Below, piece by piece: positions 50,617-63,922 of a DNA stretch of 63,922 nt (position 1 is its first letter; each line of letters begins with the position of its first letter). The notes under the pieces are model-generated. The model was not told the origin of the DNA. It was given only the letters and a program-made list of their open reading frames with translations, and did not search any database. The DNA is taken from contig DAIDLH010000040.1 in NCBI GenBank assembly GCA_027449605.1, positions 1-63,922 of the forward strand, written 5' to 3'. The position numbers and the translations under genes were made by a program. Origin of the DNA: Candidatus Muproteobacteria bacterium. GTDB lineage: Bacteria; Pseudomonadota; Gammaproteobacteria; Acidiferrobacterales; Sulfurifustaceae.

Positions 50617-52449
50617 ATGCACGAAATCCCGGCCGCCGCATTCGACGGCAAGGCATTTGCCCGCCACCTGACCCACGCGCCCGGCGTCTACCGCATGTAT
50701 GGCGCGGGCGATGCGTTGCTGTACGTCGGCAAGGCGGGCAACCTCAAGAAGCGCGTCAGCAGCTATTTCATGCGCCCGCAGATGGAGCCGCGGATCGCTG
50801 CGATGGTCGCGCAGATCGTGCGCATGGAGACCACGGTGACGCGCACGGAAAGCGAGGCGCTGATGCTCGAGGCGCAACTCATCAAGGAGCTGCGCCCGCG
50901 GTACAACATCCTGCTGCGCGACGACAAGAGTTATCCATGGGTCGTGCTGAGCGCGCATCCGGAATTCCCGCGCATGGCCTACCATCGGGGTGCGCGCAAC
51001 GGCCCCGGCGAGTATTTCGGGCCCTTCCCGAGCAGCGGCGCGGTGCGCGAGAGTCTCAACCTGCTGCACAAGCTGTTCCGCCTGCGCGGGTGCGAAGACA
51101 GCTATTTCCGCAACCGCACGCGGCCCTGCCTGCAGCACCAGATCGGACGCTGCAGCGCCCCCTGCGTCGGCTTGATCAGTGCAGCCGACTACGCGCAGGA
51201 CGTGCGCCATGTCCGCATGTTCCTGCAGGGCCGCAGCAGCGTGATCATCGATGAACTTTCGAGCGCGATGCGCGTGGCGAGCTCCGAGCTGCGGTTCGAG
51301 CAGGCAGCGCGCCTTCGCGACCAGGTGCAGGCGCTGCGCAGCGTGCAGAGCGCGCACTACGTCATCGGCGCCAGCAATGACATGGACGTGCTGGCCTGCG
51401 CGCTGCAGGGCGAGACGGCCTGCGTCAGCGTGCTGTTCTTCCGCCACGGGATGGCGCTGGGGTCGCGCGACTTCTTCCCGCGTCTTGGCGTCGACGCGCC
51501 GACGCCGTCCGCGTTGCTCGCGCAGTTCATTGCGCAGTACTACGGCGACCATCCCGCACCGCCCGAAATCGTGCTCGCCGAAGCGCCCGAGGACGACGCG
51601 TTGCTCGCCGAGGTGCTTGTCGCGCGGGCAGGGCACGATGTCAGCATCCGCAGCCGGGTGCGCGGCGACCGCGCGCGCTTCGTCGAACTGGCCACCCGCA
51701 ACGCGCAGGCAGGGCTCGCGGGTCGCCTGGCGAGCCGCCAGACGCTGGACGCGCGCTTTGCCGACCTCACGCGCTTGCTGGGGCTGGCAGCGCCGCCGGC
51801 GCGCATCGAATGCTTCGACATCAGCCATACGCTGGGCGAAGCGACTGTGGCGTCCTGCGTCGCGTTCGGGCGCGACGGGCCGTTGAAGGGCTATTACCGC
51901 AAGTTCAACATCGCGGGCATCGCGGCGGGCGATGACTACGCGGCGATGGAGCAGGCGCTCACGCGGCGATTCCGGAGGGCGGCCGAAGGGGGCGACTGGG
52001 CCAGCCCTGACCTGCTGTTGATTGACGGTGGTGCTGGCCAGGTGGCCCGCGCGCAGCAGGTGCTCGCGGAACTCGGCCTGACCGCCATCCCGATCGTTGG
52101 CGTGGCCAAGGGACCTGCCCGCCGCAGCGGCGAGGAGACACTGGTGCTCGCGCAGGGGCGCGGCGAGATCCATCCGGGCAGCGCATCGCCGGCGTTGCAG
52201 CTGGTCAACGCCGTTCGCGACGAGGCGCACCGGTTCGCCATCGGCGCGCATCGGCGTCGGCGCGAGATGGCGCGCGAGCGCGGTTCGCTGCAGGAGATCC
52301 CGGGCATCGGACCGCGCCGGCGCCGAGCCCTGCTGGATGCCTTCGGTGGCCTCGCCGGCCTCCAGGCCGCCGGCGTCGAGGAGATTGCGCGCGTCAATGG
52401 CATCGATCGCGAGCTCGCCGGTCGGATCTATGCAGCGTTGCATGGCTGA
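50617..52449 (+). CDS. uvrC: Excinuclease ABC subunit C
   Basis: Makes both incisions in nucleotide excision repair. 610 residues: GIY-YIG N-terminal nuclease (about 17-95; GVYRMYGAGDALLYVGKAGNLKKR), a UVR segment (about 205-240), an RNase-H-like domain (about 385-540; FDISHTLGEATVAS and LLIDGGAGQVARA) and a C-terminal helix-hairpin-helix (IPGIGPRRRRALLDAFGG). It begins 9 bases after the Trx-NHL stop. pgsA follows, a conserved pair. Confidence 0.97.
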   Translation: MHEIPAAAFDGKAFARHLTHAPGVYRMYGAGDALLYVGKAGNLKKRVSSYFMRPQMEPRIAAMVAQIVRMETTVTRTESEALMLEAQLIKELRPRYNILLRDDKSYPWVVLSAHPEFPRMAYHRGARNGPGEYFGPFPSSGAVRESLNLLHKLFRLRGCEDSYFRNRTRPCLQHQIGRCSAPCVGLISAADYAQDVRHVRMFLQGRSSVIIDELSSAMRVASSELRFEQAARLRDQVQALRSVQSAHYVIGASNDMDVLACALQGETACVSVLFFRHGMALGSRDFFPRLGVDAPTPSALLAQFIAQYYGDHPAPPEIVLAEAPEDDALLAEVLVARAGHDVSIRSRVRGDRARFVELATRNAQAGLAGRLASRQTLDARFADLTRLLGLAAPPARIECFDISHTLGEATVASCVAFGRDGPLKGYYRKFNIAGIAAGDDYAAMEQALTRRFRRAAEGGDWASPDLLLIDGGAGQVARAQQVLAELGLTAIPIVGVAKGPARRSGEETLVLAQGRGEIHPGSASPALQLVNAVRDEAHRFAIGAHRRRREMARERGSLQEIPGIGPRRRRALLDAFGGLAGLQAAGVEEIARVNGIDRELAGRIYAALHG

Positions 52450-52499
52450 CGCCGCGCGCTTGCGCGTGCCACACTCCTGCATCGACTGACGACGCCCGC

Positions 52500-53060
52500 A
52501 TGCGCATCAATTCGCCTACCTGGCTTACGCTGTTCCGTATTGGCTTGCTGCCAGTCTTCGTGGTTGTCTTCTATCTTCCATGGCGGTTTTCGAGCCTGGC
52601 CGCTGCCGTGGTGTTCGTTGCCGCGGCGCTCACCGATGGTCTGGACGGCTGGCTGGCGCGGCGCCTGCGCGCAACCTCGCAGTTCGGGGCCTTCCTGGAT
52701 CCGGTGGCCGACAAGCTCATGGTGACCGTGGCGCTGTTCTTGCTGGTGGCCGACCATCCCACGGCGCTGATGGCGGTGACGGCCGCCGTGATCGTCGGGC
52801 GCGAGATTGCGGTCTCCGCATTGCGGGAATGGATGGCCGGGCTCGGCCAGCGATCGCGCGTGCGCGTGCAATGGGTGGGCAAGCTGAAGACCGTCTTCCA
52901 GTTCGTGGCCATCGTCGTCCTGCTCGTCGAGCATGATGCGGGCACGCTGCGCTTCTACAAGGTGGGCGAGTCCCTGTTGCTGCTGGCCGCGGCCCTGACG
53001 CTGGTCTCGGGCATGGGGTACCTGCGGGCTGCCTGGCCGCTTCTGGGCGAGCCGGACTGA
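52500..53060 (+). CDS. pgsA: CDP-diacylglycerol-glycerol-3-phosphate 3-phosphatidyltransferase
   Basis: Membrane enzyme making phosphatidylglycerophosphate. 186 residues: four or more hydrophobic segments and the CDP-alcohol phosphotransferase motif DGLDGWLARRLRATSQFGAFLDPVADK split across DG-x2-AR-x8-G-x3-D-x3-D. Followed by three tRNA genes, the uvrC-pgsA-tRNA-Gly-Cys-Leu order seen widely in gammaproteobacteria. Confidence 0.95.
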   Translation: MRINSPTWLTLFRIGLLPVFVVVFYLPWRFSSLAAAVVFVAAALTDGLDGWLARRLRATSQFGAFLDPVADKLMVTVALFLLVADHPTALMAVTAAVIVGREIAVSALREWMAGLGQRSRVRVQWVGKLKTVFQFVAIVVLLVEHDAGTLRFYKVGESLLLLAAALTLVSGMGYLRAAWPLLGEPD

Positions 53061-53111
53061 CGTGCAGGGGTTGACAGTCCCCGCAGTCACCCTACAATTC
53101 CGTTTCCCAGC

Positions 53112-53187
<76 letters not shown>

Positions 53188-53194
53188 GATTCGC

Positions 53195-53226
53195 AAAACC
53201 TCGGGGAACCGGGGTTTTGTTTTTTC
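53195..53226 (+). terminator. Rho-independent terminator after tRNA-Gly
   Basis: AAAACCTCGG pairs with CCGGGGTTTT (10 bp, one G-U) around a GGAA loop, followed by GTTTTTTC. It lies between tRNA-Gly and tRNA-Cys, so the tRNAs probably do not form one transcript, or the site is only partly efficient. Confidence 0.85.
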
Positions 53227-53267
53227 TGGGCCAAGACCGCACAATCGCTGGGTGATCGATCCATCGG

Positions 53268-53341
53268 GGCCAGGTGGCAGAGTGGTTATGCAGCGGCCTG
53301 CAAAGCCGTGTACGCCGGTTCAATTCCGACCCTGGCCTCCA
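53268..53341 (+). tRNA. tRNA-Cys (GCA)
   Basis: 74 nt with CCA. Acceptor GGCCAGG pairs with CCTGGCC; anticodon loop CTGCAAA reads GCA; T arm GGTTCAATTCC. Discriminator base is U, as required for CysRS. Confidence 0.96.
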
Positions 53342-53454
53342 CCATTCCATGCGGTCATCGACGGCCTGTCTCCGGACGGGTCGCGGGTCGATGGCGGGTG
53401 CGGCGATGGACGCCGTGCCGGTCATTTGACCCATGGTTGGACCGCAGCGCGCCC

Positions 53455-53541
53455 GCCCGGGTGGCGAAATCGGTAGACGCAGCGGACTTAAAATCCGCAG
53501 GCCGCAAGGCCGTGCCGGTTCGAGTCCGGCCCTGGGCACCA
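53455..53541 (+). tRNA. tRNA-Leu (TAA)
   Basis: 87 nt with CCA and a long variable arm (ggccgcaaggcc), typical of class II tRNA. Acceptor GCCCGGG pairs with CCTGGGC (one G-U); anticodon loop CTTAAAA reads TAA; discriminator is A. Confidence 0.96.
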
Positions 53542-54117
53542 TGAGCCAACCGTTTTGTCCGGCCTGAAAGGTTGGCTGGATCGGCTCCATGCCCGTCCGT
53601 TGGCCTTCGTTCCGCCGCAGTGGCGCCGCCGCTCGCGCGCTCCTCTTGACTGCTTGCCGCCGCCAGAAGCACGAGGTCAATCCGCGCGCGTACCAGGGTC
53701 GCCGCCACGATGCATCCGCAGCACGACGCGAGGTGGGGACGTCGCAACGTGGCCAACGCACTCGCCACCAACTGGATGAGGACCTGCATGCCTCAGGGGT
53801 TTTGCTTGCAGGGGCGTGGGAAGGGCTTGCCAGCGCCGCGCATGCGGGGATCCGGGCACGAGGACATGGCGTTGCCGGCGAGGCATCTCGGCTGCGGTCG
53901 TTCGCTGCGCGGGATGCTCGTTCCGTCCTTGCGTGGAAGTGCCGAGCGTTTGGTTGTAAGGTCGAATCGGGAGATCGCAATGCCCATGCCGCAGGCGGAT
54001 TTGCGTTCCCCGGGGTCGAGCGCCCTGCGGGACCGCGGGAAGCGGTGTGGTTCGATGGAAACAGCAGGATCGATGGCTCAGCGTTGTTGCGACGGTGTGT
54101 CGCAATCGGGGTGGGGC
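53542..54117. other. Intergenic or 5' region without a recognisable gene
   Basis: 576 bases between tRNA-Leu and the hemerythrin-GGDEF-EAL gene. The reading frame of that gene stays open back to an ATG at 53710, but the encoded stretch (rich in Arg, Cys and Gly, no motif) does not look like a domain. A promoter is expected here but none is convincing. Confidence 0.4.
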
Positions 54118-57100
54118 ATGGCTTCCGTTGGACGTAGGGATGAGGTCTGGCAGCTCGCGTTCGGCGACGAGCTTCTGACGGGTCATGCCGAAATCGATGG
54201 TCAGCATCGTCGACTGGTCGACCAGTTCAATTCATTGACCCGCCTCGCTGGCGAAGCCGACGTCCAGTCCGCGCACCTGGAAGGGATCCTCGTCGAACTC
54301 GAGGCTTATACCCGGTATCACTTCGGTACTGAAGAGCGGTTGATGAGGGATTCCCGTGTGGATCCCCTCCACCGGCGCGTGCACCACGATGCACATTTGT
54401 CCTTCGTCCGGTTCGTTCGCCGCGCGAAGGAGGTCGCGCATGTTCATCCGCGGGAGACAGCGAGCTATCTGGCGCTGTTCCTCGGCCAGTGGTTGCTCCA
54501 CCACATCATGCACGTCGACCGCGAGCTCGTGGACTGCCTTGATCGGGAGACGCGGGCACGGCCGGCGCAGGACGATTTCGCCTCCGCCCTCATCCACATC
54601 AACAGCGACCTTTACAACCTCGTGGGGCAGCACGTTTTCCAGATTTTCGACGTGAACGCACGCCTCGAGACGGAAGCCGAACATCGTGCGTTCATCGGTC
54701 GCGTGCTCGAGGAGATGCAGGCGGTTTATCGGAAGCTGCTCGCCATCGGGTCGGAGTTGATCAGTTCCCTTCAACCGGCCGATGCAGCGATGGTGGTCTG
54801 CAGGAATCTCGGATGCCTGGGGCTGTTCGACGACGTCTGCGTCGTCTCCGGGGCCTTCCGGGACAAGCGCGCCGTCTTCGGATTTGCGGGCGACCGGGCA
54901 TTCGCGGAATGGTTCATGCGCGGGACCCCGGCCGACGTGGCGGTCCATCCGCTCGAGCGCGTCCTTGAATCACGGCAAGCCCTGTTCTGGAATGCCCAGG
55001 TTGGTGAAAGTCGTTCCGCCGATGCAAGGGACAGCCGGGATCTGCAGTCACCCGATCGCGTCTTCGCCGTTCCCATCTTCCGCCAGGAGCAGGTTTTCGC
55101 CGTGCTGGGCGCAACGCTGCGCAGGGGCACGAAGTTGGAGGACGAAGTCAGGGATCTGGTCTTGCAGATCGCGCGGCAGCTTGGCCTGGCATTCGAGCAG
55201 ATCGAACTGCGCCATGTGCTCGAGCACCAGCGCGACGAGCAACGGTACATGGCCTACCACGACAGCCTGACTGGGCTGACGAACCGGCTTGGCCTCGAGG
55301 AAGAGGTCGAGCGCATGGTTGCCGACGCACGTGCCGGCAGCCGGTGGTTCACCCTGGCCCTCATCGATCTTGATCATTTCAAGCCGATCAACGATGCCTG
55401 GGGCCACGGTGTTGGGGATCAGCTGCTGCGCCAGCTGAGCGAGCGCCTGCAGGCGAGCCTTGAGCCGTCGGAGGTGCTTGCGCGACTCGGCGGCGACGAA
55501 TTCGTGGTGCTGGCCCGCGGCCTGAAAGCCGAGCCCGATGCTCCGGGATTCCAGCGATGGCTTGGGCGGCTGGATCGCGCGATCGAGGCGCCGTTCGTTC
55601 TGGGCGATCAGCACACGGCAACGATCAGCATGAGCGTTGGAATCGCCGGGTATCCCTCGGACGGCGAGGACTTCAACACGCTGCTGCGGGTTGCCGACGG
55701 CGCGATGTTCCGCGCCAAGGACCACAAGGCAGGCGGATCGCGCTGGTGGCGCATCGGTCAGCGGGACGAGGGCGACGCCGCGCCCGCGAGCGAGATCGAC
55801 CCGTTCGGATCCGAGGCCGCACTCCTTCTCGGCAAGCATGCGCAGAGCCTGGCGCTGGCGTGTCCCTTATACACAGAGGAATTCGCCGCGCTGTTGAAGG
55901 CAGATGTGCGTAATGAGAGCATCATCGAGCGGATGGCGGACGATAGCCTCGACTCGCTGGCGCGACGCCAGAGCGAACATTTTGCGTGCGTCTTGAGCCC
56001 GGAGCTCACGCGCGCGGAGCTCGTGGAGCGTGCTTCCCGGATTGGGGAAGTGCATGCTTTGCTGGACGTTCGCGGCAGTAAGGTATTCGAGGCTTACTCA
56101 CGGTTTGAGCGCTGCCTCCGGAATCAGTTGGAACAGATGCCGATGCGTACCGATCATCGCGAGCGCGTTCTCCAGGTCGTGAGCAAGCGGTTCGTCGAGG
56201 ACTTCGCCCAGGAAATCACGGCCCAAGAGGAAGTCATTACCTCGAGCTTTTTGCGGTTGTCCTCTCCCGTTCCGACAGCAGGAAGCCTTGCGGACCGCAT
56301 CGCGGTGGAACTGGATCGGGCCGCAGGACTGCCGGGAGTCGTGGCCGCGCTCCTTTTCGCGGTCGGCCCGCAGAATCAGCTGAGGTGCGTCCAGGCATCC
56401 GGTGCGGACGGACAGACGGTCGCAGCGTTTCTCAACGACCCCGCGCATGCCCCGGTGCTGGACCCCAGGTCAGGTCGTGGCAACACGGCCGCGGTGGCGG
56501 CATGGCTGGATGCGCAGGTGCATGTCACCGACCGGTTCCATCACGATCCCATCTACGACCATTGGAAGGACGAGCCGGCATTCCGCAATTTCCAGTCCAT
56601 CGTTGGCATCCCGCTGGTCAACGCCTCGGGCCGCGTTATTCGCGTCCTGAGTCTTGCAGGGCGGTATCCGAATCAATTTCGACCCGCGTGGTACCAGCGC
56701 CTGGTGACGATGATCCGGGATCGATGGGTCGGTTTGTGGGACGAGCCCGCCAGGGAGATTCCGCAGATCGAAGACCACCCGATGGGCGACATTCGGCTGG
56801 CCTTCTATTCCGATCGCATCCAGCCGTTCGTGCAGCCAATCATGGCGTTTGCATCAGGCGAAGTGACCCGTGTCGAAGTGCTCGCACGCCTGCGGCTCGA
56901 TGATGGCCGGATCCTGACACCGGACCGCTTCCTGCACCTGCTGAGCGAAGAGGACCTGTGGCGGATGTTCCAGAAAATGATGGTCGTCAGTTCCCGGTTT
57001 CTTGCCGAATGGCGGGAGTCCGGTCGGGCGCTGGCATTGTCGATCAACGTACCACCGTCGATATGCGTACGCGAGGATCTCGACGCGTTTGTGCTCGGCG

Positions 57101-57816
57101 TGCTGGAACAGCACCGCTTGCCCGTGGACGCACTCGTTCTCGAGTTGCTGGAGGCAGGATCCGTCGATGAGCACTTGTTGCAGGAATCGACGACGCGTCT
57201 GGCAGGTCATGGCCTGCATCTCGAGCTGGATGATCTGGGCTCGGGATTCAGCAGTCTGGTGCGCTTCCTCCAGTTGCCGTTCGCGGCGACCAAGATCGAC
57301 CGGGGCATTACGCTGGAACTGCGCAAGCATCCTGACAAGGCGATGGGCCTGATCGAAGGAATCATTGACATTGCCACAGCTTTCTCGCGACCGATCGTCA
57401 TCGAAGGTTTGGAGGACGCCGGCATGGTCGAAGCATGCGGCGTTCTTGGCGTCGACTTTGGCCAAGGGTATTGCCTCGCTCGTCCGATGGCCGCCGAGGA
57501 TTTCCCGCGCTGGCTGGACCAGTATCGGGCGCCGCCACCCGACCGGCGCATTCGCAGTTTCTTGGGTGCATTGGCCATTGCATGGGCAACGCATCGCAGC
57601 ATCACCGAGATTGCGAAACTCGGTCCGCTGGAGGTTTGCCCGCTCACGCACTTCCTGCGTCAGGTTCGTGGTCCGGATTGCGATGCCGAGGCCCTCCATG
57701 CGGCGATCCACGACGGGGGCCGCAATGCCGCGATCGAGGCACTCAAGTTGATCGAGTGGCTTGTTCAGGAAGCCGTGAGAGAAGGCGGCACCCCGGGCGA
57801 GGCACCGTCCTCTTGA
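54118..57816 (+). CDS. Hemerythrin-GAF-GGDEF-globin-GAF-EAL c-di-GMP turnover protein
   Basis: A predicted soluble 1232-residue protein that could both make and break c-di-GMP. In order: hemerythrin (about 10-140) with all seven diiron ligands (H30, H68, E72, H89, H93, H129, D134); a GAF-like region (about 190-370); a GGDEF domain (about 378-540) with intact GGDEF at 458-462 and no RxxD inhibitory site; a globin-like sensor (about 560-710) with likely proximal H646 in RIGEVHALLDV; a second GAF-like region (about 725-880); and an EAL domain (about 900-1150) with EVLAR (E920), INVPP, LDDLGSGFSSL, TKIDRG and VIEGLED. An 80-residue tail follows. The start is uncertain: 54118 (chosen, just ahead of the hemerythrin), 54073 or further upstream. 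Confidence 0.88.
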   Translation: MASVGRRDEVWQLAFGDELLTGHAEIDGQHRRLVDQFNSLTRLAGEADVQSAHLEGILVELEAYTRYHFGTEERLMRDSRVDPLHRRVHHDAHLSFVRFVRRAKEVAHVHPRETASYLALFLGQWLLHHIMHVDRELVDCLDRETRARPAQDDFASALIHINSDLYNLVGQHVFQIFDVNARLETEAEHRAFIGRVLEEMQAVYRKLLAIGSELISSLQPADAAMVVCRNLGCLGLFDDVCVVSGAFRDKRAVFGFAGDRAFAEWFMRGTPADVAVHPLERVLESRQALFWNAQVGESRSADARDSRDLQSPDRVFAVPIFRQEQVFAVLGATLRRGTKLEDEVRDLVLQIARQLGLAFEQIELRHVLEHQRDEQRYMAYHDSLTGLTNRLGLEEEVERMVADARAGSRWFTLALIDLDHFKPINDAWGHGVGDQLLRQLSERLQASLEPSEVLARLGGDEFVVLARGLKAEPDAPGFQRWLGRLDRAIEAPFVLGDQHTATISMSVGIAGYPSDGEDFNTLLRVADGAMFRAKDHKAGGSRWWRIGQRDEGDAAPASEIDPFGSEAALLLGKHAQSLALACPLYTEEFAALLKADVRNESIIERMADDSLDSLARRQSEHFACVLSPELTRAELVERASRIGEVHALLDVRGSKVFEAYSRFERCLRNQLEQMPMRTDHRERVLQVVSKRFVEDFAQEITAQEEVITSSFLRLSSPVPTAGSLADRIAVELDRAAGLPGVVAALLFAVGPQNQLRCVQASGADGQTVAAFLNDPAHAPVLDPRSGRGNTAAVAAWLDAQVHVTDRFHHDPIYDHWKDEPAFRNFQSIVGIPLVNASGRVIRVLSLAGRYPNQFRPAWYQRLVTMIRDRWVGLWDEPAREIPQIEDHPMGDIRLAFYSDRIQPFVQPIMAFASGEVTRVEVLARLRLDDGRILTPDRFLHLLSEEDLWRMFQKMMVVSSRFLAEWRESGRALALSINVPPSICVREDLDAFVLGVLEQHRLPVDALVLELLEAGSVDEHLLQESTTRLAGHGLHLELDDLGSGFSSLVRFLQLPFAATKIDRGITLELRKHPDKAMGLIEGIIDIATAFSRPIVIEGLEDAGMVEACGVLGVDFGQGYCLARPMAAEDFPRWLDQYRAPPPDRRIRSFLGALAIAWATHRSITEIAKLGPLEVCPLTHFLRQVRGPDCDAEALHAAIHDGGRNAAIEALKLIEWLVQEAVREGGTPGEAPSS

Positions 57817-57956
57817 TGCCGATTGCATTCCACGCTTCGAACGAGCCAACTTTTGCGCACGGACCGCCGCCCGCTTGAGCCCAGGGTTGCTCGGCCGATG
57901 GATGACCCTGCAATCTCCAAATGACATTGATTACGGTCCTTCGGGAGTGCTGGTTC

Positions 57957-58193
57957 ATGGATAAGAAATCGCGATTCTGGTTTCCTGCAAAGCGGTATGG
58001 GTGGGGCTGGGGACTGCCCGTTTGCTGGCAGGGCTGGGCCGTTTTGCTGGGCTATTTCGCGCTCATGCTCGCGGTCCAGGCGATCGTGCCACCCGCACGC
58101 GACATGCCGCTTTCCATCGTGATCGAGGTTGTCCTGACGGCCGCATTTCTCGTGGTCGTCTGGGCCACGGGCGAGCCGCTGCGCTGGCGATGA
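57957..58193 (+). CDS. Small two-helix membrane protein
   Basis: 78 residues: a Trp/Tyr/Gly-rich start (FWFPAKRYGWGWGLPVCWQGW), two hydrophobic helices (about 24-42 and 50-68) and a short basic end. ATG at 57957 is preceded by GGGAG at 9 bases. Small proteins of this style are common beside GGDEF/EAL genes, but I do not recognise a family. Confidence 0.7.
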   Translation: MDKKSRFWFPAKRYGWGWGLPVCWQGWAVLLGYFALMLAVQAIVPPARDMPLSIVIEVVLTAAFLVVVWATGEPLRWR

Positions 58194-58230
58194 AGGAAGC
58201 AGGACGCTGACGACCCCGCCAGCTTGGGTC

Positions 58231-58725
58231 GTGCGGAGCGTCCGTGCAGCGAGGCCGTGCAGCCGGCGCGACTTCCGAAAATCCGTGGCCAACGCCGCAT
58301 CGGTTGAGCTGCGCCGGCAAATCGCCTACAAAGCCCAGGGGTCCGGGCGCACGCTGAGCATCGTCGATTGCTGGTATCCATCGAGCAAGACCTGCTCGGC
58401 CTGTGGCGCGGTCAACAGGGCGCTCACGCTGAGTCAACGCCACTGGATGTGTTCCGCCTGCGGCGCCGAGCACGACCGCGACGACATCGCCGCGATCAGC
58501 CTCGACCGCGAACGCCCGGGCCCGATCACTGCAAATCCCCCGATGAGCGGGGAAATCGACGCACGGGAAGACTTCGGCGCGGTGGCGGAAGTGCCGGTCA
58601 TCGCGCTTGCGCAGCGCCGCCGTTCGCCGAGCCGCGAGGAGCTTTACAACAGCCGCAGGCTGGTCACCCATCGCCACGCGTTGCGCGCCGAACCGCCCGA
58701 AACGCCGGTCCGGAGCCGGTGGTGA
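58231..58725 (+). pseudogene. tnpB (IS200/IS605-type) C-terminal remnant
   Basis: Only the end of a TnpB RNA-guided nuclease is left: KSVANAASVELRRQ, YKAQGSGR, IVDCWYPSSKTCSACG and CSACGAEHDRDDIAAISL. The four zinc cysteines and the third RuvC aspartate (HDRD) are kept; DRDxNAAxN is altered to DRDDIAAIS. The first RuvC aspartate, the glutamate and the N-terminal RNA-binding part are missing. An extra tail follows the zinc ribbon. No TnpA is nearby. Its DNA end matches the partial element at the right edge of the window. Confidence 0.85.
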
Positions 58726-58745
58726 GGGTGGGGAGCGAGACTCAG
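58525..58745 (+). repeat. Right end of tnpB-type element, copy 1
   Basis: About 220 bases that match, in inverted orientation, bases 63727-63922. Clear shared blocks are cggcgcggtggcg, gccgaaccgcccgaaacgcc (approximately) and a common terminal word gagactcag ending at 58745. A difference of about 28 bases near 58635 shifts the reading frame relative to the other copy. The region covers the tnpB 3' end, where a guide RNA is normally made. Confidence 0.8.
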
Positions 58746-58801
58746 GTTGTTCCATAATCGGTCGACGGCCGGCCTGACGGCGGCGACTTCGGGGATTCCG
58801 C

Positions 58802-61060
58802 ATGAACCTATCCGCACGGCGCATCCTTGTGGGCGCCATTGCACTCGGCATGGCTACCGAAGCATTCGCGGGAGCGCCACCGGATTTCCAAGCGTTGAGC
58901 CGGATCGTATCGGTCTCCGGCTACGAACAGCAGCTCTCGGGCGCCATCGCGCACCAACTGGCTGGGCTGCATCCGCATACCGACAACCTCGGGGACATCT
59001 GGGTCACGGTCGGCACTGGAGCACCCCATCGCCTCGTCGTCGCGGCGATCGACCAGCCGGGTTACGTCGTCAGTGGCATCACGGCCAAGGGTTACTTGCG
59101 CGTGCAGCGCCTGCCGCAGCGCAAGCCGAACGCGGTTTTCGACACCCTGCGCTTCGCCCAGCCCGCCTATGTCGTGACCCCGAAGGGTCTGCTGAACGCT
59201 GGATTCGCAGGCCTAAGCATCCACCTGTCGACCGGGCGGATGGATCCGCCAGCCATGTCGCACCTGGACAACTTGTACCTCGACATCGGGGCAACCTCCG
59301 CGGCCGAGGCCCGTACCGCCGGCGCCGACCTCCTCGAGCCCGTTGCCCTGGCGCAGCCGCCGATGACGGTGGGCACCGATGATGAAGCGGGCGCTGCGGC
59401 CGGTGATCGATTCGGTTGGGAAGCAGTGCTCGAGGCAGCCCAGGGGCTGGCGCGCACGTATGCCCGGGGTACCACGACCTTCGCCTTCGTGACCCAGCAA
59501 TGGCTCGGGGGACGTGGCTTGTCGCGGCTTCTGACCGAGCTCCCCGTCGACGAGGCGGTCTTCGTCGGGCGGATCGAGCCGACAACGACCACGGCCGCCG
59601 ACTTGCGACCCGGTGATGGCGTGGTGATCGGCTCGACAGCGCCCGCGAGTGCAGGAACCCTCCCCGACGCGCTGCATGCCCTGGCCGTCGCGAACCACAT
59701 CCGCTCCGTTGTGCTCGACGAGAAACCCCCGGTGATCAGCGGTTTCGGCCCGAAGCCCAGCTGGCCCGGACGATTCGCGATGCTCGGTGTGCCGACGCTC
59801 TACCCCGTGACGCCGGCCGAGACCTTCTCGCGGTCCGACCTCCGCAAGCTGACCCGGCTGGTCGAAGATTATGTCGGCGAACCCGTGACGCCGATGAGCG
59901 AGGCGAACGACCCGTTCGATGCAGCACGCCAGCCTTCGGCGGGGTCCGGCGTTCCGGTCCTTGATCGGGCGCGAGCGCCTGACCCACGCCTGCTCAAGAC
60001 CCTCGAGGCGGTCACCACCGCATATGGCGCCAGCGGGCACGAGGAGGGCACACGCGAAGCGATCCTGAGCCGGTTGCCCGCGTGGGCGCGGCCGCTGGCG
60101 CACGTGGATCCGGCCGGCAATCTCGTGCTGCACATCGGGCATGCGGTGCCTGGCGTGCACGCGCCATCGATCCTCTTCGACGCGCACATGGACGAGATCG
60201 GCTACCAGGTGACCCGCATCAGGAAGGATGGCGCCCTCGTCGTGCGCGAACTCGGCGGGTTCTATGGGCGCTATTACCTAGGCCACGTGATGTTGGTCCA
60301 CCTTCCGGATGGCCAGAGCGTCGGTGCGGTGCTGGGTCTGCCGCACGGCTGGGATCGTCCCGGGTTCCGGTGGCCCCCAGCGATGAGCACGTTGAACGCG
60401 ACCGCGGAGGCCTATGTCGGCACCGATTCGCTTTCGGCGACCGAGCAGCTCGGAATCCGCGTCGGCGACTTTCTGACGATGCCGAAGACCTACCGGCCGT
60501 TGCTGGGCTCGCACTTCGAAATTCGCAGCATCGATGACCGGGCCGGAGATACCGCGCTCATCGAGGCCGTGAGGGCGCTCGGCCCCGACTTCGCTCGCAA
60601 GCACCCGGGTCGGCAACTGACCTTCCTGTGGGCCACGCGCGAGGAGGTCGGGCTGGAGGGCGCGGCTGCCTATGCAGCGCGGGTCGCGAAGCTGGGGCGT
60701 GAGCCGGACGTCGTGTTCGCCATCGACATGTTCGTGAGCAGCCAATCGCCGCTCGAGACGCACCGGTACGGTGACGAACCGCTGGGCAAGGGTTTCGTGG
60801 TGCGCGCGGTCGATCTGTCCCACATCGATTCGCCCGCCGACGTGGCGCGGGTCGTGGCCCTCTCGCGCGCCAACCATATTCCCGTGCAGTATGGCGTGAC
60901 GGGCGGCGGCAACGACGCAGCAGTGTACACGCGATACGGCGCCAATGCCGTGGCGCTGGGTTGGCCCACCAAATATTCGCACTCGCCGGCGGAGCAGTCG
61001 GACACGCGCGATGTCGAGGCGCTCAGCCGCATTTGCACCGTCCTGGCGACCCAATGGTAA
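58802..61060 (+). CDS. Secreted tandem M42 (glutamyl aminopeptidase/endoglucanase-like) metallopeptidase
   Basis: 752 residues with a signal peptide (about 1-23, ...TEAFAG). Two M42-like units follow. The C-terminal one (about 385-752) has the full co-catalytic metal set: DAHMDEIGY, SIDDRAGDT, TREEVGLEG, AIDMF and YSHSPAEQSD. The N-terminal one (about 28-370) has the same fold-type order but its metal positions are changed (AAIDQPGYV in place of AHMDEIGY), so it is probably structural. Export points to periplasmic peptide breakdown. The S9 peptidase gene follows after 170 bases. Confidence 0.88.
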   Translation: MNLSARRILVGAIALGMATEAFAGAPPDFQALSRIVSVSGYEQQLSGAIAHQLAGLHPHTDNLGDIWVTVGTGAPHRLVVAAIDQPGYVVSGITAKGYLRVQRLPQRKPNAVFDTLRFAQPAYVVTPKGLLNAGFAGLSIHLSTGRMDPPAMSHLDNLYLDIGATSAAEARTAGADLLEPVALAQPPMTVGTDDEAGAAAGDRFGWEAVLEAAQGLARTYARGTTTFAFVTQQWLGGRGLSRLLTELPVDEAVFVGRIEPTTTTAADLRPGDGVVIGSTAPASAGTLPDALHALAVANHIRSVVLDEKPPVISGFGPKPSWPGRFAMLGVPTLYPVTPAETFSRSDLRKLTRLVEDYVGEPVTPMSEANDPFDAARQPSAGSGVPVLDRARAPDPRLLKTLEAVTTAYGASGHEEGTREAILSRLPAWARPLAHVDPAGNLVLHIGHAVPGVHAPSILFDAHMDEIGYQVTRIRKDGALVVRELGGFYGRYYLGHVMLVHLPDGQSVGAVLGLPHGWDRPGFRWPPAMSTLNATAEAYVGTDSLSATEQLGIRVGDFLTMPKTYRPLLGSHFEIRSIDDRAGDTALIEAVRALGPDFARKHPGRQLTFLWATREEVGLEGAAAYAARVAKLGREPDVVFAIDMFVSSQSPLETHRYGDEPLGKGFVVRAVDLSHIDSPADVARVVALSRANHIPVQYGVTGGGNDAAVYTRYGANAVALGWPTKYSHSPAEQSDTRDVEALSRICTVLATQW

Positions 61061-61230
61061 GGCGGACCGGCCCGGTCGGCGTGCGCCCCTTGCCGCGGAG
61101 CCTTGATGGACCGTGGTGGCCGCGAGGCGGGGCGGCCACGGCCCATCCCGCGGCGACCGGGCGTGCATGCGCCTCCCGGTCGTCCGCGGCACGATTTCTG
61201 TTGTCCACTTCCCGAAAAGGAGAGGCTCCC

Positions 61231-63276
61231 ATGCGACGTCTGCGATGGATGGTTCCGACTCTGGCGCTGGCCCTGTTGTCGGCGATGCCTGCGCATGCCA
61301 GCGATGCGGCTGCCTGGGTACCGTTCCAACTGACCGATGTGCGGCAGATGGTTCGACTGCAGCAGCCGGTGATCGCGCCGGACGGCCGATACGTGGCGCT
61401 GGTCGTCACGCGCTTCGATTGGGCGACGGACGAGGCCCGCCCTGAGATCGACCTGGTCAACGTCGCCACGGGCCGGATCCGGCCGCTGACGCAGCGGCGC
61501 AAGGGGATCAGCGCCGTGCAGTGGGCGCCGGGGGGTCACCGGCTCGCGTTCATTGCCGAGGCTCCGCCGGAAGCGGCGGGTGCCGCGCCGAAGGCAGCGG
61601 CTGGCAAACCGGAGACGAAGTCCCAACCCCAGGTCTTCGTGATGCCGATGGACGGTGGCGATGCGCGGCAGGTCACGCACGCGCCGCGGGGGGTTGTCGG
61701 TTTTGCGTGGAGTCCCGACGGCCAGCGCATCGCCTTCATTGCCGAGGACGAGCCGGCCAATGCGAAGGCACTGGCCCAGCACGACGGAGCCTTTGAAGTC
61801 ACCGACGGCAACTTCCAGCTTCGCAATGCGTTGGCTCCCTGGCACTTGTGGGTCGTATCCAGCGAGGGCGGCAAGGCGACGCGGCTGACGCAGGGAACCT
61901 ACAGCCTGCAGACCGACCAGCAGGGCACGCCCTATCCAGCCTGGAGTGCCGACGGCAAGACAATCGCATTTATTCGCTACCCGAGCCCCTATTGGGGTCC
62001 CTCGTACCATTCGATCATCGATGCCATGCCTGCCGGAGGCGGCACGCCGCGTGTCCTCTCCGCCCGGCAAGGCGCCATGGCCGTGCGCTTCCAGCCCGGC
62101 AGTTCGTCGCGTTACGCCTACCTGCGTCCGCTGCATGGCGACGAGAACAACGGCAACGCGGTGTACGTGGGCGAATACGGGCACGATCGCGATGCGACGG
62201 CGGATCTTGCGCGCAACATCGATACCTATGCCTGGATGCCGGGTGGCCACGATCTGCTGGTGAGCGGCGAGCTGGGCACGCGCTCGGTGATGTGGCTGCA
62301 GCCGCTGGATGGACCAGCGCGATTGCTCGACCTGGGCCACGTCAACATCCAGCAGCACCAGCCCACTGTTTCCCGCACCGGCACCGTGGCCTTCATCGGC
62401 AGCACCGCCACGCATGCCGACGAGCTCTACGTGCTGCCGCACGTCGGCGATGCACCTCGGCGTCTGACGGATCTCAATGCCTTCACGGCAGATCGCCGTC
62501 TGGGCCGCACAGCGAGCATCGACTGGACCGGTCCCGGCGGGTTCCACGAGGACGGCGTGCTGGTCTATCCCGTCGATTTCCACCCGGGACAGCGTTATCC
62601 GCTCGTCCTGGTGATCCATGGTGGACCCGAAGGTGCGAGTACGGTGGCCTTCTCGCCGTTGACGCAGCTGCTGTCCGCTGCTGGGTTCGTCGTCTTCGAG
62701 CCCAACTATCGAGGCAGCACGAACCTGGGCAACGCCTATCAGCACGCGATCTATCGCGATACGGGGCAGGGCCCGGGCGAGGATGTCATGGCGGGCCTTG
62801 CGGCGGTCGAGAAGCTCGGCATCGTCGATGCGAACCGCATCGGCGTGAGCGGCTGGAGCTACGGTGGCTACATGACGACGTGGCTGACGGGCCACTACGG
62901 CGTCTGGAAGGCCGCGGTGTCCGGGGCGGCGCTGACCGACTGGGTGATGGACTACACGATCGCCTATTACCAGACGGGGGATACTTACTTCTTCGGGGGT
63001 TCGCCGTGGCGTGCCAAGGACTATGCGATCTGGCGCGCGCAGTCCCCCATTGCCTATGCCCAGCATGTCAAGGCACCGACGCTGATCATGGGGGACGTCG
63101 GCGATCCCAACGTGCCCCTGGTCAACAGCTACGAGTGGTACCACGCATTGCGCGACAACGGCGTCGAGGTGCGGTTCATCGCCTATCCAGCCGATACGCA
63201 CTTCCCGGAGGACATCGTGCAGACTACCGACGTCTATCGGCGGTGGGTCGGCTGGATGGAGCACTACCTGCATTGA
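61231..63276 (+). CDS. Secreted S9-family prolyl oligopeptidase-like peptidase
   Basis: 681 residues: signal peptide (about 1-24, ...MPAHAS), a beta-propeller (about 30-420, repeated WSPDGQRIAFIAE-type blades) and an alpha/beta hydrolase (about 430-681). The triad is S543 in GWSYGGYM, D625 in GDVGDPNVP and H657 in YPADTHFP. ATG at 61231 follows AAAGGAGAG. The fold fits dipeptidyl/acylaminoacyl peptidases; which of these is not determinable. It probably works with the M42 enzyme. Confidence 0.93.
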   Translation: MRRLRWMVPTLALALLSAMPAHASDAAAWVPFQLTDVRQMVRLQQPVIAPDGRYVALVVTRFDWATDEARPEIDLVNVATGRIRPLTQRRKGISAVQWAPGGHRLAFIAEAPPEAAGAAPKAAAGKPETKSQPQVFVMPMDGGDARQVTHAPRGVVGFAWSPDGQRIAFIAEDEPANAKALAQHDGAFEVTDGNFQLRNALAPWHLWVVSSEGGKATRLTQGTYSLQTDQQGTPYPAWSADGKTIAFIRYPSPYWGPSYHSIIDAMPAGGGTPRVLSARQGAMAVRFQPGSSSRYAYLRPLHGDENNGNAVYVGEYGHDRDATADLARNIDTYAWMPGGHDLLVSGELGTRSVMWLQPLDGPARLLDLGHVNIQQHQPTVSRTGTVAFIGSTATHADELYVLPHVGDAPRRLTDLNAFTADRRLGRTASIDWTGPGGFHEDGVLVYPVDFHPGQRYPLVLVIHGGPEGASTVAFSPLTQLLSAAGFVVFEPNYRGSTNLGNAYQHAIYRDTGQGPGEDVMAGLAAVEKLGIVDANRIGVSGWSYGGYMTTWLTGHYGVWKAAVSGAALTDWVMDYTIAYYQTGDTYFFGGSPWRAKDYAIWRAQSPIAYAQHVKAPTLIMGDVGDPNVPLVNSYEWYHALRDNGVEVRFIAYPADTHFPEDIVQTTDVYRRWVGWMEHYLH

Positions 63277-63318
63277 TGCTGGCCGACCCGGCGTGCGGCG
63301 GCGCGTCCGCCGCGCGCC

Positions 63319-63726
63319 TTACTGGTCGAGCAGCAGGCGTTCGAGTTCGAACACGTGCGGGTCGTCTTCGCCGAGCGCGCGCAAGGCTGCGGCCAGCCGC
63401 AGCAGGTATTCGGCATTGCGACCGCTGGGACCCGAGGCCCGGCGGATCTGGTCCGCAATCGCCGGTGCCGGCGCGTCGCCCAGCCAGGCCGGATTGCCGG
63501 GCTCGGCGATATAGATCCACGCGTCGATTTCCGTACCGTCTCTGCGTTGCAGCCGCACCGGGGACCGCTGATAGCCATTCTGCTCGCGGACGTCCAGATG
63601 CCCGAGGACGTTCGCGCCGACGCGGTAGGCCACGCCGGCGCACGTCGCACCCGAGGTCCTGACCAGTGTCAGCACGCGTCCGGGCGCTTCGGGGGTGCCG
63701 CGATGGTCGTGCGAGCCTTGCCAGAT
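63319..63726 (-). pseudogene. ChaC-like gamma-glutamylcyclotransferase, 5' end lost to a tnpB-type element
   Basis: Encodes only the second part of a ChaC protein: WQGSHDHRGTPEAPGRV, GVAYRV, LDVREQNGY, YIAEPGNPAWLG, IRRASGPSGRNAEYLL and DDPHVFELERLLL, then a TAA stop at 63319-63321. The N-terminal ~45 residues with the substrate-binding GYGSL loop are absent. Homology stops exactly where the element end (63727) begins, so an insertion has removed the start. ChaC enzymes break down glutathione; this copy should be inactive. Confidence 0.85.
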
Positions 63727-63922
63727 CTGAGTCTCACGCCCCACCCTCGCCGCCGGTTCCGGACCGGCGTTTCGGGCGGTTTGGCGCGCAGCGCCTGGCG
63801 ATGGGTTCGCGGTTCGGCGACCGGCGGTGCTGCGGCAGCGCGATGACCTGCGCTGTCGCCACCGCGCCGAGGTCTCCCCGCGCGTCAGTTCCCCCACTCA
63901 TTGGGGTACGCCCCTCCGGGCC
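63727..63922 (-). mobile_element. Right end of tnpB-type element, copy 2 (cut by window edge)
   Basis: Runs from the window edge toward lower coordinates and ends with gagactcag (reverse strand) at 63727, the same terminal word as copy 1 at 58745. In the reverse strand one frame encodes a tail (SGGTDARGDLGAVATAQVIALP, then NREPIARRCAPNRPKRRSG) similar to the tail after the zinc ribbon in copy 1. The rest of the element lies outside the window. Confidence 0.8.

Follow-up and report, generated by a model that had tools for sequence, protein, structure and literature searches.

Cyclic dimeric guanosine monophosphate (c-di-GMP) enzymes can be controlled by a hemerythrin or by a globin, and each sensor is known singly in this setting. 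In Vibrio cholerae Bhr-DGC, an N-terminal hemerythrin controls a GGDEF domain; the protein is active when reduced to the diferrous form, with synthesis about tenfold higher, and it is described with hemerythrin and GGDEF only, without globin or EAL (PMC9388753). DcpG of Paenibacillus dendritiformis, a globin-coupled sensor, carries a haem globin, GGDEF and EAL in one chain, and hemerythrin is unmentioned in its description (PMC10882959). A 2022 review states that no EAL-type hemerythrin phosphodiesterase had been discovered so far (PMC9388753), although a single protein combining hemerythrin with GGDEF and EAL appears in the count of a 2008 survey (PMC2556348). Here we analyse a gene on the forward strand of a 63,922-nucleotide stretch (the window: contig DAIDLH010000040.1 of assembly GCA_027449605.1, binned as a Candidatus Muproteobacteria bacterium) that encodes both types of sensor and both catalytic domains. 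Pfam and the structural models give the order hemerythrin, GAF, GGDEF, protoglobin, GAF, EAL and a C-terminal tail. No c-di-GMP protein with hemerythrin and globin together is described in the titles, abstract openings and passages covered by our literature search, which leaves out most subscription papers as well as Table S1 and the domain figure of PMC8846402 (PMC8846402, PMC2556348, PMC10882959, PMC4331095, PMC1592074, PMC6416229, PMC11841059, PMC13401364, PMC12442639, PMC9388753). Our preferred reading, to which we give a probability of roughly one half, is that of a bifunctional c-di-GMP enzyme, probably a dimer, with two sensor–enzyme halves in tandem, a cyclase that would be run by redox state or O2 and a phosphodiesterase that would be run by haem.

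The gene is a single frame of 1232 residues (54118-57816) with no internal stop, where the remaining two forward frames have 25 and 18 stops. An in-frame extension to a start at 53710 is disfavoured because it lacks a Pfam match and its G+C by codon position is flatter than that of the gene. The original prediction was to be abandoned if a frameshift or an assembly join separated the GGDEF and EAL halves. Both are disfavoured, and a chimeric assembly inside the gene is rejected, because a contig from a separate assembly (JAKAEJ010000064.1, metagenome-assembled genome WY1.bin20) carries the entire gene colinear with the window copy: its alignment with window positions 52406-63813 spans 11,408 bases and is gap-free, with 12 mismatches. 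The name of this contig gives a coverage of 2.07, and it may share a sampling project with the window. Eight of the 12 mismatches (window versus L010) lie inside the gene and cause six amino-acid changes (L58F, H128Y, F290L, E945D, F1114Y, C1119Y), all of which spare the ligands and catalytic residues named below; H128Y is not a lost diiron ligand, since the alignment described below places the ligand at H129. The gene thus holds a modest excess of mismatches (Fisher p 0.025), which may stem from low coverage or relaxed constraint. That six of the eight differences change an amino acid, together with a long EAL branch in the tree and a TnpB fragment downstream, could be taken as signs of a decaying gene whose architecture has little meaning left. 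We consider this very unlikely, given 1232 codons without a stop, the retention of every named metal ligand and catalytic residue, and a gap-free copy in the second assembly whose differences avoid all of these residues.

The N-terminal domain is a hemerythrin by Pfam (residues 22-139, 38.5 bits, cut-off 25.3) and TIGR02481 (81.5 bits versus a cut-off of 51.75, E 5e-23), and the structures of DcrH and of bacteriohemerythrin match inside residues 20-141. The score against the stand-alone bacteriohemerythrin family NF033749 (74.6 bits) is under its cut-off of 84; the hemerythrin here is a sensor domain, outside that subfamily. The match to DcrH and a 16-row alignment both bear out the complete set of seven diiron ligands (five His, one Glu, one Asp) noticed previously in the sequence: H30, E72, H89, H93, H129 and D134 are invariant across the rows, and H68 is nearly so, with Gln in one relative (L166). 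An AlphaFold model of residues 1-546 (predicted local distance difference test 79.6, predicted template modelling score 0.57) has four long helices across residues 24-146, followed by linker helices, a GAF domain, a helix at 342-380 and the GGDEF domain. When this model was searched with Foldseek, the top match was a bacteriophytochrome diguanylate cyclase, followed by further GGDEF structures. Pfam GAF_2 was found in two stretches (best, residues 278-360), which agrees with the two GAF-like regions expected, while the linker helices, the tail after EAL and Ala590 are features that the original prediction had not included.

Both catalytic domains are well preserved, and the matches of the protein in PHROGs are confined to them. 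The GGDEF domain scores 132 bits in Pfam; neither its motif nor its DxDxF segment is disrupted, and EPSE occupies the I-site position in place of RxxD, as the first reading of the sequence had it. The active site is that of a diguanylate cyclase, and such activity is predicted. The EAL domain (131 bits) keeps in the alignment E920 (where the motif reads EVL), N977, E1009, E1012, D1038, D1039, K1059, E1096 and Q1116, to which we assign what are presumably their usual roles. The main acidic and Asn/Lys residues were thus correctly recognised at the outset and, with metal- and substrate-binding residues in place, phosphodiesterase activity is predicted as well.

The Pfam score of the globin is marginal (Protoglobin PF11563 at residues 578-693, 25.3 bits versus a cut-off of 25; 29.1 bits in a six-frame search), and the domain was therefore tested further. 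A search of the PDB with the single sequence returned two chance matches only, and a profile search succeeded. The predicted model is confident and has a globin fold whose nearest structures are sensor globins, so the claim survives a failure foreseen for it, namely that no globin fold would be predicted for residues ~560-710. H646, proposed as a candidate proximal His, does fall in the proximal-His column of HemAT, in an EVHA motif. This column has His in 20 of 29 rows of the globin family and lacks it in nine. In globin–EAL relatives of family f2 (loci L181, L198, L200-L202) the proximal His is replaced by Tyr, Leu or Asn, and these globins may be haem-free; in three of the loci they occur as two neighbouring copies. 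Distal Tyr stabilises O2 in O2-sensing globins. The distal-Tyr column has Tyr in 18 of the 29 rows and Ala in the window protein only (Ala590), so that firm binding of O2 is the less likely role for this haem site. It probably prefers NO or CO as a ligand, or else senses the redox state of the haem. For the same reason, the proposal that both sites read O2 is not supported as it was stated.

The loss of the distal Tyr, the lack of the proximal His in nine of the 29 family globins and the presence among the structural matches of RsbR, which is haem-free, would also fit a globin that is haem-free or structural, with the hemerythrin as the sole gas or redox sensor. This is unlikely in our view, because H646 is retained in its EVHA motif and its column has His in most rows. 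The position of the globin sets the protein apart from known types as well. In a classical globin-coupled sensor, the globin is at the N-terminus of the chain; here, it is internal, between GGDEF and GAF2-EAL, and comes after GGDEF rather than ahead of it as in DosC-like proteins.

To place the architecture among its relatives, we searched genomes with the globin and GAF2, taking class, order and family from the bin, which are possibly not those of the contig. Matches were found in 11 of 369 genomes of the class and 19 of 57 of the order (own genome included in both), in one of 20 of the family (own only), and in two of five genomes in the order of G375. From the 14 class matches other than our own, 13 of the 24 order matches other than our own, one more from G801, and L011, we obtained and analysed 29 frames (16 + 13) that hold the family globin. 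Pfam was run on 19 of them and phmmer on all. Every frame carries EAL, and 16 have the order GGDEF-globin-EAL. The same order is seen in L108, with GGDEF only partly in frame, and L111 has the globin first. The other 11 are globin–EAL proteins without GGDEF (L011, L115 twice, L195, L198, L199, L200 twice, L201 twice, L202); because they lack GGDEF yet keep globin and EAL, they strengthen the earlier assignment of the globin to the EAL half. The N-terminal sensors of the relatives scanned with Pfam are GAF, GAF with PAS, MASE4 or nothing recognised. As judged from sequence, the combination GGDEF-globin-GAF-EAL recurs as a core whose N-terminal sensor can be exchanged.

Hemerythrin was not found by phmmer in any of the 29 frames. 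Reciprocally, residues 1-365 as the query gave matches in 44 of 369 genomes of the class (own included), and none of the 16 hemerythrin frames from 15 regions sampled from these matches has the family globin; two of them, L166 and L167, are HHE-GAF-GGDEF-EAL proteins. This survey is a sample and not a census, and most of the matches to residues 1-365 lie outside it. A globin–GAF profile searched across the phylum matched 90 of 398 genomes; among the matches listed, most span GAF only and some globin only, and these loci are outside the count of co-occurrence with hemerythrin. Plasmids gave no match to globin-GAF2 at E 1e-3. Of the six-part order, which was unfamiliar at the outset, the GGDEF-globin-GAF-EAL portion recurs, here with a hemerythrin-GAF sensor ahead of it; the hemerythrin–globin pairing is absent from the 29 globin and 16 hemerythrin frames.

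The trees of the catalytic domains suggest how the pairing may have arisen. They comprise 50 rows for EAL and 54 for GGDEF, the latter with 35 unlabelled rows picked randomly from 102; near-identical copies of the window protein were left out, and L194 was labelled 'other' in error. The EAL tree groups the window protein with globin-GAF-EAL proteins in a 28-row clade (support 98/97) and, within it, in a subgroup of 11 (92/91). L111, L166 and L167 branch directly outside this clade (31 rows, 100/97). The GGDEF tree places it in a group of 21 rows (99/98) with L111, L166, L167 and one Acidithiobacillus protein, with no finer placement. In the simplest history, an HHE-GAF sensor of the L166/L167 type would have been placed ahead of a GGDEF-globin-GAF-EAL core.

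We infer the following mechanism from the predicted parts. The protein would probably be dimeric. Its first half (diiron hemerythrin, helices, GAF, long helix, GGDEF) would act as a diguanylate cyclase controlled by redox state or O2, active in the reduced diferrous form as is Bhr-DGC, so that O2 or oxidation would lower synthesis. In the second half (haem globin, GAF, EAL, tail), a ligand on the haem bound by H646 would alter the output of EAL, with NO or CO favoured, or with haem redox state being reported, and both inputs together would determine net c-di-GMP. We predict no sign for the haem input, because the phosphodiesterase of DcpG answers O2 and its synthesis is driven by NO, and because a GCS-HD-GYP protein is inactive with NO or CO (PMC10882959). 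These precedents also weigh against our assignment, as do the family globins that lack a proximal His, cofactors that are so far predicted, and a GGDEF domain that may merely regulate EAL.

The last point leads to a reading that we regard as rather unlikely, though the least so of the alternatives, in which the protein is mainly a phosphodiesterase, both sensors feed that activity and GGDEF is a GTP-binding regulator. This role of GGDEF, as a regulatory partner of EAL, occurs in many tandem proteins, and EAL is the constant output of the family, present in 29 of 29 frames while GGDEF is absent from 11. Against this, the GGDEF motif and DxDxF are intact and a 39-residue helix runs into the GGDEF domain. 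The idea that the protein compares two signals and switches between synthesis and hydrolysis remains an inference. A sharper form of it, in which two iron cofactors in one enzyme make a two-input decision, the diiron site (O2/redox) gating synthesis and an NO/CO-tuned haem gating hydrolysis, is put forward tentatively and is doubtful at present. If it were true, this would be, within the searches made, the first pairing of hemerythrin and globin in one chain, and diiron, haem and both activities in a single molecule would permit a direct test of discrimination between O2 and NO, or between redox and gas.

The contig of the window (G000:C40) is probably foreign to its bin, because the bin contains a second, diverged UvrC and duplicated tRNA DNA. 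Of the other family genomes, 18 match UvrC at E 1e-50, each of them once, and the bin matches it twice. The copy on contig C81 is 95.9% identical to UvrC of G014, from the same genus, and the window copy is 48.8% identical to that of C81; DNA like tRNA-Gly/Cys and pieces of tRNA-Leu also recur on C81. The genome of L010 has no UvrC at E 1e-20. The absence of globin-GAF2 matches from the remaining 19 of the 20 genomes of the family is consequently uninformative about a recent gain by the genus. Genes for tRNA-Gly, tRNA-Cys and tRNA-Leu lie directly upstream of the gene (53112-53541). It is followed by a small frame resembling, by eye, a short membrane protein (~57957-58193) and by a TnpB-type C-terminal fragment (58165-58725; Cas12f1-like_TNB, E 3.9e-18). 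Self-similar stretches were seen between ~57.1-58.8 kb and the window end (208 bases; 63727-63906, inverted, 75%) and at 58666-58745 (80 bases). The tail of the protein has a Cys and an HxxxH that, by eye, are common to nine of 22 aligned relatives. They are reminiscent of the zinc motif of CZB. This identity is unsupported: in Pfam at E up to 10, the tails of the window protein and of six relatives gave no CZB, and the lone match was weak and unrelated (SPDY, in L193).

Table 1. Features of the gene in window coordinates.
Feature	Position	Strand	Basis
Whole gene, 1232 aa (start codon unproven; 54118 preferred)	54118..57816	+	
Hemerythrin (HHE) domain, residues ~15-140	54160..54537	+	Pfam, TIGR02481, DcrH match, alignment, model
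Linker helices, 154-176 and 186-216, HHE to GAF1	54577..54765	+	AlphaFold model; within 15-362 match in G225
GAF1, residues ~220-335	54775..55122	+	Pfam, model
Long helix, residues 342-380 (39 residues), into GGDEF	55141..55257	+	Model
GGDEF domain, residues 379-537; motif 458-462, without RxxD I-site	55252..55728	+	Pfam, alignment, Foldseek
Globin (protoglobin/globin-coupled-sensor type), residues ~565-714	55810..56259	+	Pfam, profile search, predicted model
A590 codon, distal-Tyr (B10-type) position	55885..55887	+	Profile match, alignment
H646 codon, candidate proximal haem ligand	56053..56055	+	Profile match, alignment
GAF2, residues ~735-888	56320..56781	+	Second GAF_2 stretch; phmmer to relatives; Pfam GAF flanked by globin and EAL in relatives, e.g., L104
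EAL domain, residues 891-1123	56788..57486	+	Pfam, alignment, tree
C-terminal tail, residues 1131-1232, with C1174 and H1194xxxH1198	57508..57813	+	Comparison of relatives; no Pfam family

Compared with other known systems, the window protein shares the vocabulary of globin, GAF, GGDEF and EAL with the GCS-GAF-GGDEF-EAL, Protoglobin-GGDEF-EAL-CZB and GCS-EAL proteins of Acidithiobacillus, in which the globin is written first and for which the word hemerythrin is absent from the main text (PMC6416229). With Bhr-HD-GYP of Ferrovum it shares the control of a c-di-GMP phosphodiesterase by hemerythrin, and differs by having EAL instead of HD-GYP (PMC9388753). L166 and L167 share its N-terminal half, but their GGDEF adjoins EAL without globin or second GAF, and L166 has Gln at the H68 position; together with these two, it adds to the hemerythrin–EAL proteins. 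The 16 members of the core family (L102-L107, L109, L110, L112-L114, L192-L194, L196, L197) share GGDEF, the internal globin, EAL and, by Pfam or phmmer, the intervening GAF; the nearest of them also share the tail, and the EAL tree groups the family with the window protein. None of the 16 has the hemerythrin, their N-terminal sensor being GAF, GAF with PAS, MASE4 or unrecognised. It is the pairing of hemerythrin and globin that looks new, and the remaining parts come from a known and much-shuffled family.
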